A DNA stretch of 21,633 bases from a virus, in the IMG/VR virus record IMGVR_UViG_3300020180_000129, positions 1 to 21,633 of that record; one strand, given 5' to 3'. Position 1 is the first letter of the stretch. Every line of letters starts with the position of its first letter. The translations under genes were made by a program, and so were the position numbers. Below, piece after piece: positions 1 to 16,399 of this stretch. Under the pieces are notes generated by a model, which had not been told where the DNA came from, did not search any database, and was given only the letters and a program-made list of their open reading frames with translations.

Positions 1-24
1 GTGTGACTCGTAGGGTTCTGACCC

Positions 25-34
25 GGAGGGAGGG
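25..34 (+). promoter_or_regulatory. Ribosome binding site of small terminase gene
   Basis: A purine-rich GGAGGGAGGG run lies 4 to 13 bases ahead of the ATG at 39. It decides the start: the frame is open back to a GTG at 3, but that codon has no Shine-Dalgarno sequence inside the window. Confidence 0.75.
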
Positions 35-38
35 CCCG

Positions 39-434
39 ATGGCGACTGGCTTCGCTCCGAAGGAACCTGACCAGCGACGGAATCGGCACGAACCGAAGCG
101 TGGTGAGTGGGTCGACATCCCCCGGATCGGCACAACGGATGTCCCACCGTGTCCCAGGGACAACCCGGAAACCGTGCGTGCGTGGGCGGCGTGGTGGGCT
201 GATCCGGCGTCGAGTCAGTGGACGCAGTCCGATGTCGACGCTGTCCACGATCTGGCTCGGCTGCACTCTGAGTTCTCAGACGGGAAGCTCTCGTACGCAG
301 GTGAGATCCGGCTCCGGTCCGATGGACTCGGGTTGACGCAGAAGGGCAAGCGGGATCTTCGGTGGAAGGTCGCGACCGACGATGCGCCGGCGCGAGTCGA
401 GAAGTCGGGCCGGCGCAAGCTCAAGCTCGCGTAG
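39..434 (+). CDS. terS: Phage terminase small subunit
   Basis: This 131-residue protein is probably the DNA-recognition subunit of the packaging motor, which binds the packaging start site and passes DNA to the large subunit. The sequence shows a basic N-terminus (residues 11-21) and a tryptophan-rich stretch at 48-61 (RAWAAWWADPASSQW). A helical segment follows (DVDAVHDLARLHSEF, 65-79), then a basic tail. The W-A-W-W-x-x-P-x-x-x-x-W pattern is what I associate with actinophage small terminases. Start ATG 39 has a strong ribosome binding site. The TAG stop is followed immediately by the ATG of the large terminase (TAGATG), which fits coupled translation. The assignment rests on the motif plus position directly before a clear large terminase; no catalytic motif is expected in this subunit. 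Confidence 0.82.
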   Translation: MATGFAPKEPDQRRNRHEPKRGEWVDIPRIGTTDVPPCPRDNPETVRAWAAWWADPASSQWTQSDVDAVHDLARLHSEFSDGKLSYAGEIRLRSDGLGLTQKGKRDLRWKVATDDAPARVEKSGRRKLKLA

Positions 435-3485: not shown

Positions 3486-4198
3486 CCGACTTCATCCGCG
3501 ACTATCCGTTCGAGTTCGCAGAGACCCGCGGCGAAGGCGACGGACTGACGCTCGAAGGGTACGTCGCGGTGTTCGACTCCCCGACGGTCATCCACGAACG
3601 TGGTGGTTCGTTCACCGAGACCGTGGCGCGTGGTGCGTTCAAGAAGACACTCGCGGAACGTACCCCGGTCCTGATGTTCGACCACGGCCAACATCCCCTC
3701 ATCGGGGACATGCCCCTCGGTCTGATCACTCGCGCCGTCGAAGATCAGCACGGCGTGTTCATCCGTGCGCGGCTACATCAGAACTGGCTCATCGAGCCTG
3801 TCCGCGAAGCCATCGCGTCGAAAGCGGTCCATGGGATGTCGTTCCGGTTCGAAGCGATCAACGACAACTGGAACGCGAAGCGCACGACCCGTGAACTCGT
3901 CGAGGTGCGTGTCCCTGAGGCTGGTCCCGTAGTGATGCCTGCCTACGACACCACGTCTGTCGGTGTGCGTTCCCGTGAAGCGTTCCGGCTTCTCCACGAC
4001 CCCGAAGTGCGTCGCGACCTCGCCTACATGGCAGCACGCGACGCCGAGGACTTGGCACTCGACGAGGGGGCCGTCCGAACGGACACCCCCGACCTCGAGC
4101 CGCCCGCACCAGAGAAGGAGCCGGCGAACGCCACTCCTGACAACTCAGACCGCGTCGAACGTCTTCGGACGCTCGCCAAGCTCAAAGGAATCATCTGA
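3482..4198 (+). CDS. HK97-type prohead maturation protease
   Basis: This 238-residue serine protease probably sits inside the prohead and cleaves the capsid N-terminal scaffold region before DNA packaging. The fold signature is clear: LEGYVAVFDSPTVI near the start, the catalytic His in FDHG (H68), the catalytic Ser in HGMSFRF (S120), and a strand with EVRVPEAGPVVMPAY that usually carries the third triad member. The last 50 residues are charged and low-complexity (PPAPEKEPAN), typical of the self-removed tail. Start ATG 3482 has AAGGAG at 3469-3474 and overlaps the portal stop by four bases. It shares a base with the capsid start. Known for the family (peptidase U35 / PF04586): herpesvirus-like Ser-His-acid protease, usually 200-260 residues. 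Confidence 0.95.
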   Translation: MTDFIRDYPFEFAETRGEGDGLTLEGYVAVFDSPTVIHERGGSFTETVARGAFKKTLAERTPVLMFDHGQHPLIGDMPLGLITRAVEDQHGVFIRARLHQNWLIEPVREAIASKAVHGMSFRFEAINDNWNAKRTTRELVEVRVPEAGPVVMPAYDTTSVGVRSREAFRLLHDPEVRRDLAYMAARDAEDLALDEGAVRTDTPDLEPPAPEKEPANATPDNSDRVERLRTLAKLKGII

Positions 4199-11376: not shown

Positions 11377-11394
11377 GTGACACGACCATCAATC

Positions 11395-11401
11395 GAAGGA
11401 G
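11395..11401 (+). promoter_or_regulatory. Strong ribosome binding site of tail tube gene
   Basis: GAAGGAG with eight bases to ATG 11410. It sets the start at 11410 rather than the in-frame ATG at 11377, which lies beside the leader hairpin and has no such site. Confidence 0.8.
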
Positions 11402-11409
11402 CACGGCAA

Positions 11410-11904
11410 ATGGCGAATCGTTTCGTCCGCCGCGGGAACACCGACCTCTGGTTCATCTCCACGTTGGCTTCCCCCACGGCCCCGTCCATCACCACCGACA
11501 TCGGCGGCGGCGTGTCGCTGGGTCTGCATGTCTCGGAGATCAGCGGGTTCTCGTCAACCGGTACCTTCGTCGAGACCCCGGACTTCGGTTCGTCTGTCGT
11601 TTCGAAGATCCCCGGCACCGACGAACTCACCGACTCTGCCCTCACGATCTACGAGTACGACGTCGACGCGGACAACCCGCTGAAGACGACCCTCGCGAAG
11701 GGCACCTCGGGGTACGTGCTCATGGCCCCACACGGTGGGGAGAACACGAACGGCAGCATGAAGGTCGGGCAGAAGGTCAACGTCTTCCCGGTGCAGGTCG
11801 CGTCGACGTCGGACAACTTCGATTCCGGCAACGTCGGTGCTACATGGACGTGCTCGATGGCGATCACGTCGGCTCCGTACTACCGCGTGTCGGTAGTCAC
11901 CTGA
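11410..11904 (+). CDS. Major tail tube protein
   Basis: This 164-residue, strand-rich protein probably polymerises into the tail tube. It begins MANRFVRRGNTDLWFI, followed by strands and loops such as EISGFSSTGTFVETPDFGS, a segment SALTIYEYDVDADNPL, and GTSGYVLMAPHGGE. It closes with ATWTCSMAITSAPYYRVSVV. This order (long beta strands, a DxxNP turn, a closing 'A-I-T-S-x-P' strand) is typical of actinophage major tail proteins of the lambda gpV/TP901 class. It lies immediately before the frameshifted tail assembly chaperones and has the best-spaced ribosome binding site in the region, as expected for an abundant protein. A single base separates its stop from the next ATG. Confidence 0.88.
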   Translation: MANRFVRRGNTDLWFISTLASPTAPSITTDIGGGVSLGLHVSEISGFSSTGTFVETPDFGSSVVSKIPGTDELTDSALTIYEYDVDADNPLKTTLAKGTSGYVLMAPHGGENTNGSMKVGQKVNVFPVQVASTSDNFDSGNVGATWTCSMAITSAPYYRVSVVT

Positions 11905-11905
11905 C

Positions 11906-12442
11906 ATGACCGACGAGCGGCCTACCACGTTCGATCATCTCCGGTCCCGGAAGAAAGCGACCCGGAGACACGTCGACTTGTGTCTCGACTCCGAAGTCGC
12001 GGACGCGCACCAAGAAGCCTTGGAGCGTGTCCGCGGCGCGGAGTCGGACACTGGTTCACGTAAGGAACTCACCGTCGCGAAGAAGGCCCTCGGCGAAGCC
12101 GACGTCGCTCTGCGCGAGGCATCGCAACGGTTCGTGTTCCAGTCGATCTCTCGCCGGCAGTACCAGGATCTCGTCGATGAGCACCCACCGACGAAGGATC
12201 AGGTAGCGGAAGGTGAGGAGTCAGGCAACCCCCCCGACTTTGACGTCGAAGGGTTCGCGCCGGCGCTGATCGCGGCGTGCGTGGTCGACCCTCCGATGAC
12301 ACCGGACGAGGCGAACGAACTGTGGAACTCGCCGGAGTGGTCAACGGCCGAGTCGATGCTGCTGTTCATCACCGCGAACGGTGCGAACTCGCAGTCCCGG
12401 GTCGTTGATCTGGGAAAAGGATCCGGCTCGACGTCCGACTGA
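11906..12442 (+). CDS. Tail assembly chaperone, short form (gpG-like)
   Basis: This 178-residue protein corresponds to lambda gpG, a chaperone thought to coat the tape measure during tail assembly and not to remain in the virion. It has a basic N-terminus, a long charged helix (about 33-75), and a C-terminal helical domain with FAPALIAACVVDPPMTPDEANELWNSPEW. Such A-x-C-(V/I)-x-P-x-(F/M)-(T/S)-x-(D/E)-E-A-x-x-(L/I)-W segments are typical of actinophage tail chaperones. Near its 3' end lies an in-register slippery heptamer that yields a longer product. Position between tail tube and tape measure gene is diagnostic. Confidence 0.88.
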   Translation: MTDERPTTFDHLRSRKKATRRHVDLCLDSEVADAHQEALERVRGAESDTGSRKELTVAKKALGEADVALREASQRFVFQSISRRQYQDLVDEHPPTKDQVAEGEESGNPPDFDVEGFAPALIAACVVDPPMTPDEANELWNSPEWSTAESMLLFITANGANSQSRVVDLGKGSGSTSD

Positions 12443-12756
12443 GAGCCGAACTCGCGTACTGCGTCCCCCACGGGATCCCCCACTCACTATTCCTCGACTG
12501 GGATCCCGACGACCAGGACAAGGCCCTCGCCTACCTGAGGGTCGTTGCGGATGAATGCCCGCACTGCGGCACCCGTGACAGCGACTGGCTCGACGGGGAC
12601 GGCCGTTTCTTGGATCACCCGAAGTGGGAAGCCGTCCCGCATGTGTGTCCGGGGTGCCGTGAGCTCGAAAACGCCCGTGATGCAATCCCCGAAGATGCAG
12701 ACACCCGCGGGCTCGGATTCCGATTCAAGGACGTAGAGGGGACCGCAGGTGGCTGA
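11906..12756 (+). CDS. Tail assembly chaperone, frameshifted long form (gpGT-like)
   Basis: The long product reads 11906-12418, slips back one base, and continues 12418-12756: 171 + 112 = 283 residues. The T part has no start codon of its own, follows directly in the -1 frame, and encodes a coherent domain. It begins with RLRAELAYCVPHGIPHS and FLDWDPDDQDKALAYLR, followed by a four-cysteine zinc ribbon, CPHC (C218, C221) and CPGC (C248, C251). That layout is known in actinophage gpGT proteins. The stop overlaps the tape measure start by eight bases. Family knowledge: G and GT act in a fixed ratio as tape measure chaperones. That ratio depends on frameshift efficiency, which cannot be read from sequence. 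Confidence 0.88.
12412..12418 (+). promoter_or_regulatory. Programmed -1 frameshift slippery heptamer
   Basis: GGGAAAA sits in the exact X-XXY-YYZ register of the zero frame (ctG GGA AAA). After a -1 slip both tRNAs re-pair (GGG, AAA). It is 22 bases before the zero-frame TGA and leads into the only long open -1 frame. GGGAAA-type heptamers are well-known phage G/GT sites. Confidence 0.9.
12424..12448 (+). promoter_or_regulatory. Hairpin downstream of slippery site
   Basis: CGGCTC (12424-12429) pairs with GAGCCG (12443-12448), a perfect 6-bp stem with a 13-base loop. It starts five bases after the heptamer, the normal spacing for a frameshift stimulator. The zero-frame TGA (12440-12442) is the last codon of the loop, next to the 3' arm. 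Confidence 0.6.
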
Positions 12757-15700
12757 CAAGGTTCTCTCTGTAGTCATCGTCGGAAACGAAGCGAAGTATG
12801 TCAAGGCGATCCAGTCGTCCGTCACTGCAACGAACAAGCTCGAGCAGGCCACGAAGTCTGCGTCGAACACCTCGTCCACGGTTGGGGACCAGGCCACGAA
12901 GTCACTCACGAAGGCAGCCGATTCCACTTCGCTGCTGAGTAGGGGTCTGACCGGCGTCGGGAACTTAGCGAAGGACGCCGCGGGTGCGTTCACTGGTTTC
13001 CTCGCCGCGTCTGCGGTGATCGCGTCGGTGACTCGCGTGTTCTCGGTTCTGTCGTCCGCGGTCCTCGATTTCGACCGGAACATGCGGAACGTGAACTCGT
13101 TGCTCGGCCAGTCCGACGCAGGGTTCGCGAAGATGGGGGACGCGGTCCTCGGTCTGTCCCGCGAACTCCCCCAGTCGGCGTCTGCACTCTCCGCGGGTCT
13201 GTATGACGTCGTCTCGTCCGGGTTCGAGGGTGCGGATGCTCTCTCGGTGTTGCGGGCGTCGGCTGTAGCGGCGTCTGCGGGACTGACGGACACGGCGACG
13301 TCGGGTCGTGCGATCTCGGGTGTGCTCAACGCATACGGGCTCTCAGCGGCCCATGCGGGTGAAGTGTCGGACACTCTGTTCCAGACCGTGAACCTCGGTG
13401 TCATCACGTTCGAGGAACTCGCCGGCACGATCGGTGACTTCGTCGGTACCGCTGCGGCGCTGGGTGTCCCGATCGACGATGCAGCGTCGGCACTCGCGAC
13501 GATGACTCTCTCCGGTATCTCCGCGGAGGAATCCTCCACCGCGCTGAACCGGGTCATGTTGGCGCTCATCAAGCCGACGACTCAGATGGCGGCGCTGTTC
13601 AAGTCGTGGGGTTTCGAATCCGGCACCGCGGCGGTGCAGGCTCTCGGGCTCCGCGGAGTCATGGACCGCATCCGCGAGTCGACGGGCGGGACCGCGGACT
13701 CGATGCAGGGGCTGTTCGAAGAAACCCGGGGTCTGAAGGGTGCTCTGGCGCTCGTCTCCGATGAGGGCAGGAACTACGCCCGGGTCGCGGCGGGGATGGG
13801 TGAAGCACACAAGGGTGCAGGCGCAGCCGCGAAGGTGCTCGCCGAACAGTCGAAGTCCCTGTCGTTCCAACTCGCACTCCTGAAGAACAACGCAGTCGCG
13901 GCCGGGATCGAGCTCGGCCGTGCGATCGGCCCCACGATCGCTAAGGGACTGAGCCTCATTCGCGACGTGTCCCGCGATGTCGGCGCGGCACTCGTCGCGA
14001 TGTGGAAAGGCGCGCAACCCGGTATCAAGGCCGTCGGGGATGCTCTCTCCGATGTCGGGTCGATCTTCGGAGACCTACTCGACGCGGTCGGTCCGATCGC
14101 AGGGGCGTTCGCGAAGATCGCCGCAGGGTCAGTCGTCGCGACGTTCAACGGTCTAGCGAAAGCCGTCTCCGCGACGACTGGGTTCCTGAAGGATCACTCC
14201 TATCTCGTCATCGCGGTCGGAGCGTTGTACGCAGGGCAGTTGGCGCAAGGCATCGCGGCGACTGTCGTGCAACTCGGGCGGCTAGCTGCTGCGAATGCTG
14301 CCGGGGCGATCTCCAACCTTGCCGGAACAGCCACGACGGCCGTCGGGGCGTTCCGCGCCATCCAGTCGCAGATGATCGCGACGGGCGTCGCGTCGACGGG
14401 TCTCGGTTCGGCGCTCGCCGCGGCGAAGTCGATCTTCCTAGAGTTCGCCACGGTCGGTGGAGTGGCTGGCACCGTCGCCCTCGTTGGACTGGCGGCGGCG
14501 TTCTACGCGAACTCTCAGGCGATCAAGAAAGCAAACGAGGAAGCCGGCGCGTCGATCGACCGCCTGTTCGAACGGTTCGATGAAACGAAGTCCGAGGGGA
14601 TCTTCAAGCTCTCAAAGAGTCTCGGTCGTGGCGTAGACGAGATCCTCGCGGCTGGCGACCGGGCGAAGACCGGAGGGAAGAACGTCGAGCGGGCGCTCGC
14701 GAACATCAACCCGTTCGCAGACAACTCTCTCCAACGCGACGCAGCGCAGGCCGAGAAGACGATCGCTGCGATGGAACGGGTCGGACAGGCCCGGTTCAAC
14801 CTGGAGAAGAACCTCCGCACGGTCGCGAAGGGTACGGGCATCAAGGGGTTCTTCGAACCCATCATCGACGAGATCGACGCGACTGGTCGGATCATCGGAT
14901 CGAAGCTGGCTCCCACCGCGAAGGTCTTTGAGCAGTTCGCACGCACGCTGGGAGAAGACCTCACGAAGTCGGGACCGAAGGCACGCGAAGCCGCGATCCG
15001 CGTCGGTGAGGCTCTCGACGTTCTCGGTAAGCAGGCCGGCTACACGAAGGACCAACTGAATCAAGGGTTCTTCGACCCGGAGACCCTCACTGCCGAGGCA
15101 GCGGCCGCGAAGGCGTTCTCTGACTCTGTGTCGAAATCGTTCTCGGACGTCGGGGACATCCTCGCGTTCGACTTCGGTGACAACCTGAACGGCGCGTCGA
15201 TCATCCAGTTCTACACGGACACGATTGCCGCGACCGACGAGTTCACCGCGAACATCGCGAAGGCATACGAGCTCGGACTTGATCCGGGGCTCATCTCCCG
15301 TTTGCTGGTCGCGGGCCCGAAGGAAGCGGGCGAACTCCTGAAGACCCTCGTTAGCGAACAGGGCGCAGGGTTCATCGAGCAGGTGAACAACTTCGAGTCG
15401 GCGATCCGTCAGCAGTCGCAGGTCGCGACGGAGATCGCACGGCTTCAACAACGCGCACTCCTTCCTGAGAACACTGACACGATCGCTTCGTTCCTTCCGA
15501 ACGCGATTCGCATCGCGGGCGAGAAGGCCAAGCAGGGCGCGGCGTCGTCGGTGGAGTCGATCGCCGCGGCGCTCAAACTCACGCCGTCGCAGGTAGCGGA
15601 GATCGCGGGGTCGTACAACATCGACCTCCCGGGCGGTCCGAGGACCACCGTCAACGTCGACACTCTCGTCGCCGAGGTGAAGATCAAGGATCTCAAAGCG

Positions 15701-16399
15701 GCGCTGGCGGTGATCCCCCCGGAGGTCACGACCACCCCGAAGATCGACGATCCCGAAGCCGTGAAGACCTGGTGGAACGACCTGAAGGAACGGCTACTGC
15801 TCATCCCTGGTATTCGGGAGACGGTGGCGAAGATCGACGACCCCCAGCAGGCGCTCGTGTTCTGGCAGGCACTCCAGGCGAAGGTGACGGGCGTTCCGCA
15901 GAACTGGCAGACCACCTACCGGGTGAATGCCGACACGTCTGCGTTCGATGCTGCTATCGAACGGATCCGCCGCACCGCTGGAGAAGTGGTCTCGGTCCCT
16001 GTCGTCGGGTCGGGGAACCTTCGCCGCAACGCTGAAGGGAACATCCTCGACGGGCGAGGCAACGTCCGACGCTTCGCTGACGGTGGTCACTACGCCCAGA
16101 TCGACCGGTCCCGAGTCACGCGCATCTGGGCGGAACCCGAAACCGGTGGAGAGGCGTACATCCCTCTCGCGAAGTCGAAGCGTGCAAGGTCCGCACGAAT
16201 CCTGATGGCCGTGGCCGACGAGTTCGGGATGAGCTTCGCGAACGGTGGGATCACCGGCCGCAGGGTGCAGGCCAGTTCGATGAGTTCAAACACCCAGAAC
16301 GTCACGAACGTGAACGCCACAGTCATCGACCGTAAGGGTGACGGGGTACAGACCCTCGTCGACGAGTTCGCGTGGCTTCGTGTGACTGGGCGAATCTGA
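12749..16399 (+). CDS. Tape measure protein
   Basis: This 1216-residue protein sets tail length and probably travels into the host envelope at infection. The start is GTG 12749, with GAGGGG at 12736-12741. The N-terminal TP901-type core spans about residues 105-300 (FDRNMRNVNSLLG, LPQSASALSAGLYDVVSSGF, GITFEELAGT-like segment, LSGISAEESSTALNRVM). Hydrophobic segments lie at about 77-105, 484-510 and 569-588, likely membrane-active. Long helical regions with many Ala, Lys and Glu fill the middle. Residues 966-1085 hold four roughly 30-residue repeats. The C-terminus has ADGG and RIWAEPETGGEAYIPLAKSKRARS, typical of actinophage tape measures. I see no peptidase or lysozyme motif. By the rule of about 0.15 nm per residue, the tail would be near 180 nm (inference). 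Confidence 0.96.
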   Translation: MADKVLSVVIVGNEAKYVKAIQSSVTATNKLEQATKSASNTSSTVGDQATKSLTKAADSTSLLSRGLTGVGNLAKDAAGAFTGFLAASAVIASVTRVFSVLSSAVLDFDRNMRNVNSLLGQSDAGFAKMGDAVLGLSRELPQSASALSAGLYDVVSSGFEGADALSVLRASAVAASAGLTDTATSGRAISGVLNAYGLSAAHAGEVSDTLFQTVNLGVITFEELAGTIGDFVGTAAALGVPIDDAASALATMTLSGISAEESSTALNRVMLALIKPTTQMAALFKSWGFESGTAAVQALGLRGVMDRIRESTGGTADSMQGLFEETRGLKGALALVSDEGRNYARVAAGMGEAHKGAGAAAKVLAEQSKSLSFQLALLKNNAVAAGIELGRAIGPTIAKGLSLIRDVSRDVGAALVAMWKGAQPGIKAVGDALSDVGSIFGDLLDAVGPIAGAFAKIAAGSVVATFNGLAKAVSATTGFLKDHSYLVIAVGALYAGQLAQGIAATVVQLGRLAAANAAGAISNLAGTATTAVGAFRAIQSQMIATGVASTGLGSALAAAKSIFLEFATVGGVAGTVALVGLAAAFYANSQAIKKANEEAGASIDRLFERFDETKSEGIFKLSKSLGRGVDEILAAGDRAKTGGKNVERALANINPFADNSLQRDAAQAEKTIAAMERVGQARFNLEKNLRTVAKGTGIKGFFEPIIDEIDATGRIIGSKLAPTAKVFEQFARTLGEDLTKSGPKAREAAIRVGEALDVLGKQAGYTKDQLNQGFFDPETLTAEAAAAKAFSDSVSKSFSDVGDILAFDFGDNLNGASIIQFYTDTIAATDEFTANIAKAYELGLDPGLISRLLVAGPKEAGELLKTLVSEQGAGFIEQVNNFESAIRQQSQVATEIARLQQRALLPENTDTIASFLPNAIRIAGEKAKQGAASSVESIAAALKLTPSQVAEIAGSYNIDLPGGPRTTVNVDTLVAEVKIKDLKAALAVIPPEVTTTPKIDDPEAVKTWWNDLKERLLLIPGIRETVAKIDDPQQALVFWQALQAKVTGVPQNWQTTYRVNADTSAFDAAIERIRRTAGEVVSVPVVGSGNLRRNAEGNILDGRGNVRRFADGGHYAQIDRSRVTRIWAEPETGGEAYIPLAKSKRARSARILMAVADEFGMSFANGGITGRRVQASSMSSNTQNVTNVNATVIDRKGDGVQTLVDEFAWLRVTGRI
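15644..16003 (+). repeat. Four 30-residue tandem repeats in tape measure protein
   Basis: Repeat units begin at residues 966, 995, 1025 and 1055 of the tape measure (TTVNVDT, TTPKIDD, TVAKIDD, TTYRVNAD). Each runs through an amphipathic helix to an (I/V)P or VP end. The spacing of 29, 30 and 30 residues is regular. Units two and three share KIDDP, aromatic WW/FW and a final IP/VP. The DNA copies are diverged, so this is an old protein-level repeat. Confidence 0.75.

Follow-up and report, generated by a model that had tools for sequence, protein, structure and literature searches.

How does a phage tail gene that ends at a TGA continue into a second domain without a start codon of its own, and does a hairpin that holds this TGA in its loop take part? 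The question is raised by an open reading frame, G, in an IMG/VR virus record of 21,633 bases, the whole of which was analysed and is called the window here. The initial annotation had described a GGGAAAA heptamer in G at which ribosomes would slip into the −1 frame of a domain T, and had regarded the hairpin as a stimulator whose loop stop may couple termination to frameshifting. The locus proves to be a correct observation of a known mechanism, and the coupling hypothesis is unsupported.

Locus, slip site and reading frames

The gene order in the window is terminase large subunit, portal, head maturation protease and major capsid protein, followed by a glycosyltransferase block, a head-tail adaptor, the major tail protein, G and the tape measure protein, whose GTG start overlaps the end of T. 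The G/T pair is flanked by the genes for the major tail protein and the tape measure (Table 1). The first ORF of the window (3–434), which precedes the large terminase, matches phrog_226, labelled minor tail protein; its position would suit a small terminase or another packaging gene.

Table 1. Positions in the window of the G/T features and their neighbours.
Feature	Position	Strand	Remarks
Major tail (tube) protein, upstream neighbour	11377–11904	+	PF25595 3.4e-24; phrog_2491
G ORF, tail assembly chaperone	11906–12442	+	178 aa, zero frame, stop TGA 12440–12442; phrog_19248
Slippery heptamer G GGA AAA, −1 frameshift site	12412–12418	+	in register with the G ORF; kept in relatives
T domain, −1 frame	12412–12756	+	114 codons from slip site, stop TGA 12754–12756; phrog_19456
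6-bp hairpin, 13-nt loop; probably not a conserved element	12424–12448	+	spacer 12419–12423; stem CGGCTC 12424–12429 / GAGCCG 12443–12448; present, not exceptional in context
Zero-frame TGA	12440–12442	+	made by T-frame CTG AGA (Leu-Arg), 12439–12444
Tape measure protein, downstream neighbour	12749–16399	+	phrog_1272 3.3e-44; PF10145

The heptamer falls into the codons of G exactly as first described, and its perfect register is borne out. The −1 frame is open from 12409, immediately after a T-frame TGA at 12406–12408, to its own stop, and the shifted product is predicted to contain 283 residues (169 + 2 + 112). T has no start that could give the domain, because the earliest ATG, GTG or TTG in its frame is the TTG at 12610, 66 codons past the slip site. 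It was also correctly foreseen that standard calling would miss 112 residues, since the predicted GT protein escapes gene calling that runs from start to stop. An in-register XXXYYYZ with A or T as Y occurs once in the 4725 codon positions of the other ORFs of the window, and about 0.002 would be expected in the G/T overlap. Rare in other ORFs and conserved in relatives, the slippery heptamer is more than a product of chance.

Searches with G and T recovered loci from viral contigs, bacterial genomes and Streptomyces phage ZL12, giving 127 distinct loci, the window included, after identical sites were removed. The bacterial genomes with matching loci are nearly all from Streptomyces and other actinobacteria; this actinobacterial link rests on the bacterial genome contigs and ZL12, the viral-contig loci carrying no stated hosts. 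An in-register XXXYYYZ was present at or near the start of T homology in 125 of the 127 loci. Eight sequence variants were found, all of which preserve the pattern: GGGAAAA (101 loci), CCCTTTT (7), CCCAAAA (6), GGGAAAC (5), CCCTTTC (3), and CCCTTTG, CCCTTTA and AAATTTT in one locus each. Wherever both halves were matched (124/124), G occupied the zero frame and T the −1 frame, T being conserved without a start of its own and the heptamer near the 3′ end of G. The comparative evidence for a conserved −1 frameshift is strong, and the conservation of frame and heptamer backs the proposal that a programmed −1 shift would join G to T.

Relatives with a broken heptamer and a retained T, which the initial annotation had named as something that would refute its proposal, do exist, in 2 of the 127 loci. 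In L077 (about 2490–2513) and L082 (about 2490–2510) the heptamer is replaced by GACTTTC or GACTTTT, and T keeps the −1 frame across the U-run, where a single tRNA could possibly slip. The two loci suggest an alternative slip site, not an alternative to frameshifting.

The G and T proteins and known frameshift systems

G matches phrog_19248 and T matches phrog_19456, both listed as of unknown function. Five of 22 G members match PF08890 (Phage_TAC_5, XkdN-like tail assembly chaperone) with a best E of 1.7e-4, and some also match phrog_389 and phrog_20192; a few T members match phrog_20192, phrog_4537 and phrog_18843. The structures predicted by AlphaFold are confident, with pLDDT of 92 for G and 93 for T. 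The G model resembles annotated tail assembly chaperones of the Arthrobacter phages Faja (E 2.9e-6) and Molivia (6.6e-5). Koji and Faja supply the two best matches of the T model, again tail assembly chaperones; the resemblance is weaker (E 8.7e-3), and the Faja protein is the same one that is matched by the G model. T consists of a helical N-terminal part and a zinc-ribbon-like part with CxxC...CxxC, the latter motif occurring in T of 122 of 125 relatives. Solved structures searched with G by sequence or fold gave nothing significant, and the solved-structure search with T returned only rubredoxin and RPB9 zinc ribbons at E > 0.2. From the gene position and the protein matches, a lambda-type G/GT system is therefore identified.

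In lambda, G sits on the tape measure protein and T recruits tube subunits, with the shift occurring at a low level; the system is established and widely conserved (PMC5009743). The lambda G/GT −1 frameshift is credited to Xu, Hendrix and Duda 2004, as cited in PMC5009743. The window shares with lambda the placement of the G and T ORFs, flanked by major tail protein and tape measure genes, a heptamer near the G end, a T without its own start, and a −1 shift that gives two products with a common N-terminus. It differs in that Pfam and PHROGs searches assigned the window proteins to no lambda gpG or gpT family, and in that the T of the window bears the zinc-ribbon-like CxxC pair. The lambda heptamer also differs from GGGAAAA.

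Closer parallels are found among actinobacteriophages. GGGAAAA is the reported slip site of mycobacteriophage TM4 (PMC4626039) and of Microbacterium phage Bush (PMC11749239), an identical heptamer in the same kind of gene. The joined chaperones of Faja and Molivia resemble the window proteins by predicted fold, although the sequence family of the window (phrog_19248 / phrog_19456) is distinct from these actinobacteriophage chaperones. Direct homologues of G and T, with GGGAAAA in register, are gp053 and gp052 of Streptomyces phage ZL12 and their counterparts in Streptomyces prophages. Unlike the window, these have the stop 3 nt past the heptamer and no equivalent hairpin, and they are annotated as two hypothetical proteins. 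For ZL12 gp052 (L003, 3857–4168), the annotation gives a hypothetical protein of its own that begins at an internal start, and it misses the GGGAAAA join at 3794–3800.

The hairpin downstream of the slip site

The hairpin itself is present as described: six base pairs beginning five bases past the heptamer, with the TGA as the last triplet of the 13-base loop. Folded alone it has a free energy of −9.1 kcal/mol (z −1.39), and 20 of 200 shuffles are as good. Folding the RNA around the hairpin, the check that had been suggested for it, did not favor it; the stability in context is average against shuffles, with z of +0.41 for 12419–12470 and −0.05 for 12400–12500, and the minimum there is a different fold. 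A perfect stem of at least 6 bp, with a spacer of 4–10 and a loop of 3–15, follows 3.3% of window positions and occurs in 1.3% of T synonymous shuffles. The hairpin is nominally uncommon, but, picked post hoc and without replication in relatives, it is not clearly more than chance.

Conservation of the stem pairs, the other check suggested, likewise gave no sign of a functional stem. A nucleotide search of a phage collection for near relatives of the window found none, and for this reason covariation could be tested on distant relatives only. All six pairs were kept in 0 of 124 relatives. The mean number of pairs kept across these loci was 2.40, compared with 1.72–2.42 in slid controls. In an alignment of 20 sequences the paired fraction was 50.0% versus 48.1% in shuffles, with 149 of 500 shuffles reaching the observed value, and RNAalifold on the 20 sequences gave no pair and no consensus structure. 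Counting every stem at a suitable distance gave 8 in relatives and 5.8 at random positions. Minimum free energies of the relatives over 5–35, 5–55 and 5–75 nt, scored against T-synonymous shuffles, gave mean z of +0.26, −0.20 and −0.39, and no effect on downstream free energy was seen in the class of loci with the stop at +21.

For the Streptomyces loci with the stop at +21, a related stem was considered and rejected. Four or five of the six pairs are retained in L044, L045, L050, L051 and L063, and the small +21 class alone keeps 3.09 pairs, slightly above its slid controls (at most 2.64); the arms fall in codons for conserved residues of T, and overall the pairs are no better than slid controls. 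With a stem that is neither conserved, covarying nor unusually stable, and a downstream RNA no more folded than synonymous shuffles, the role of stimulator proposed for the hairpin finds no backing, and the hairpin around the stop looks like chance. A stimulatory stem specific to this phage lineage alone may exist, the comparison having used distant relatives.

The close stop codon and the predicted expression of GT

The closeness of the zero-frame stop is a different matter. Of 125 loci, 86 have this stop 3 nt from the heptamer and 12 have it at 21 nt, and elsewhere the distance can reach 129 nt. Among 75 non-redundant loci, 64 have the stop within 21 nt versus 31.6 expected from T-synonymous codon shuffling, and at 50% identity 25 of 33 do versus 10.7 expected, cluster-level tests that lessen but do not remove the effect of shared ancestry. 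The codons of T point in the same direction. When residue 4 of T is a Leu and the next codon begins with A, the Leu codon makes a stop in 39 of 39 cases (about 60% expected). At the conserved Leu-Arg motif, AGA or AGG makes TGA or TAA at +21, and such an arginine codon is used in 10 of 10 loci without an earlier stop versus 3 of 63 others (6/6 versus 1/30 with redundancy removed, p 3.6e-6), while about 5–7% of arginine codons, in T as in the window, are AGA or AGG. The +21 stop of the window is one such case; the other loci with this rare-codon stop are L006, L012, L044, L045, L050, L051, L063, L086 and L107. Going by these counts and codon choices, selection appears to act on how near the zero-frame stop lies to the slip site.

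Such a stop could have a function of its own in the signal, apart from the hairpin, as an addition to the frameshift explanation and not a replacement, and this we regard as possible, though tentative. Fast termination of unshifted ribosomes may clear the site for followers, or the stop may fix the C-terminus of G. The excess of near stops, the stop at Leu-4 and the use of AGR almost only where an earlier stop is missing speak for it. Nevertheless, the pattern may come simply from selection that keeps the G tail short, 11 of the 75 loci have stops 30–129 nt away, and proximity is common: a distance of 21 nt is ordinary, because the phages of the PRFect training set average 26 nt to the stop (PMC10885494). 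That the near stop would increase frameshifting, or buffer it, through the removal of unshifted ribosomes and without any conserved downstream RNA structure is rather unlikely, and is suggested by analogy. In SARS-CoV-2, a near zero-frame stop raises frameshifting, which its authors model as refolding of the structure (PMC8168617). As in the window, the zero-frame stop of ORF1a/1b follows the slip site by a few codons and falls within a stimulatory RNA element, which in the window is putative; ORF1a/1b differs in that the pseudoknot has been solved, is common to coronaviruses and was tested for stop distance, whereas the window hairpin is unconserved. The likeness is an analogy only, not membership. 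The near stop might affect frameshifting as in coronaviruses, or a short G tail might be needed.

The coupling hypothesis, in which the hairpin stimulates slippage and the stop in its loop ties termination to frameshifting, draws on this analogy (PMC8168617), on the typical 5-nt spacer and the free energy of the stem alone, on its rarity in synonymous shuffles, and on the apparent selection of a near stop in the phage family. We consider it very unlikely. The hairpin is not stable in context, its pairs are equalled by slid and shuffled controls, and RNAalifold finds no consensus. The window is alone in having the stop in the loop of a stem of at least 5 bp, which was seen in none of 124 other loci, and no relative (0/124) places the stop within a conserved stimulatory structure of the coronavirus kind. 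The commonest stop, at +3 nt, comes ahead of any hairpin. The footprint of a bacterial ribosome exceeds the 24 nt that separate the TGA from the A-site codon at the slip site, and no trailing ribosome can therefore occupy the slip site during termination. A ribosome at the TGA has already passed the 5′ arm, its frame having been chosen 24 nt upstream, and an effect could therefore fall on later ribosomes only. Alternatively, T could be translated from an internal or re-initiation start with no frameshifting at all. A CTG at 12439 overlaps the G stop, many relatives have some ATG, GTG or TTG in the long T open frame, and the T of ZL12 is annotated as its own CDS from an internal ATG. However, the window lacks these start codons before residue 66, and 22 relatives lack any in the stretch that runs from the T-frame stop upstream to a point 30 codons beyond the slip site; on these grounds translation of T from its own start was rejected. 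With T homology beginning at the heptamer in most loci, and the heptamer so widely kept, we regard this route as improbable in the extreme.

Our reading, in which we have great confidence, is that an actinophage-like tailed phage here carries a tail-assembly-chaperone gene of the lambda G/GT type, in which the conserved signal is the heptamer and not the hairpin. What the analysis shows is the gene context, the conserved arrangement of reading frames with its heptamer, and the resemblance of the two domains to annotated tail assembly chaperones. From the sequences we infer that the frameshift occurs, the rate at which it does so, and the assembly roles of G and GT. The majority of ribosomes would read G and terminate at the TGA, while a minority, with P- and A-site tRNAs on GGA AAA, would slip by −1 to GGG AAA and yield GT. 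If the lambda model carries over, the tape measure protein would be coated by G, tail tube subunits would be brought in by T, and the slip frequency would fix the G:GT ratio. The location of the close stop in a loop would be incidental.

Where a genome is GC-rich, comparative support is needed before a hairpin next to a slip site is called a stimulator. Our study assigns phrog_19248 to the G half and phrog_19456 to the T half of a frameshifted tail assembly chaperone, a placement that would correct the annotation in many Streptomyces prophages and phages.
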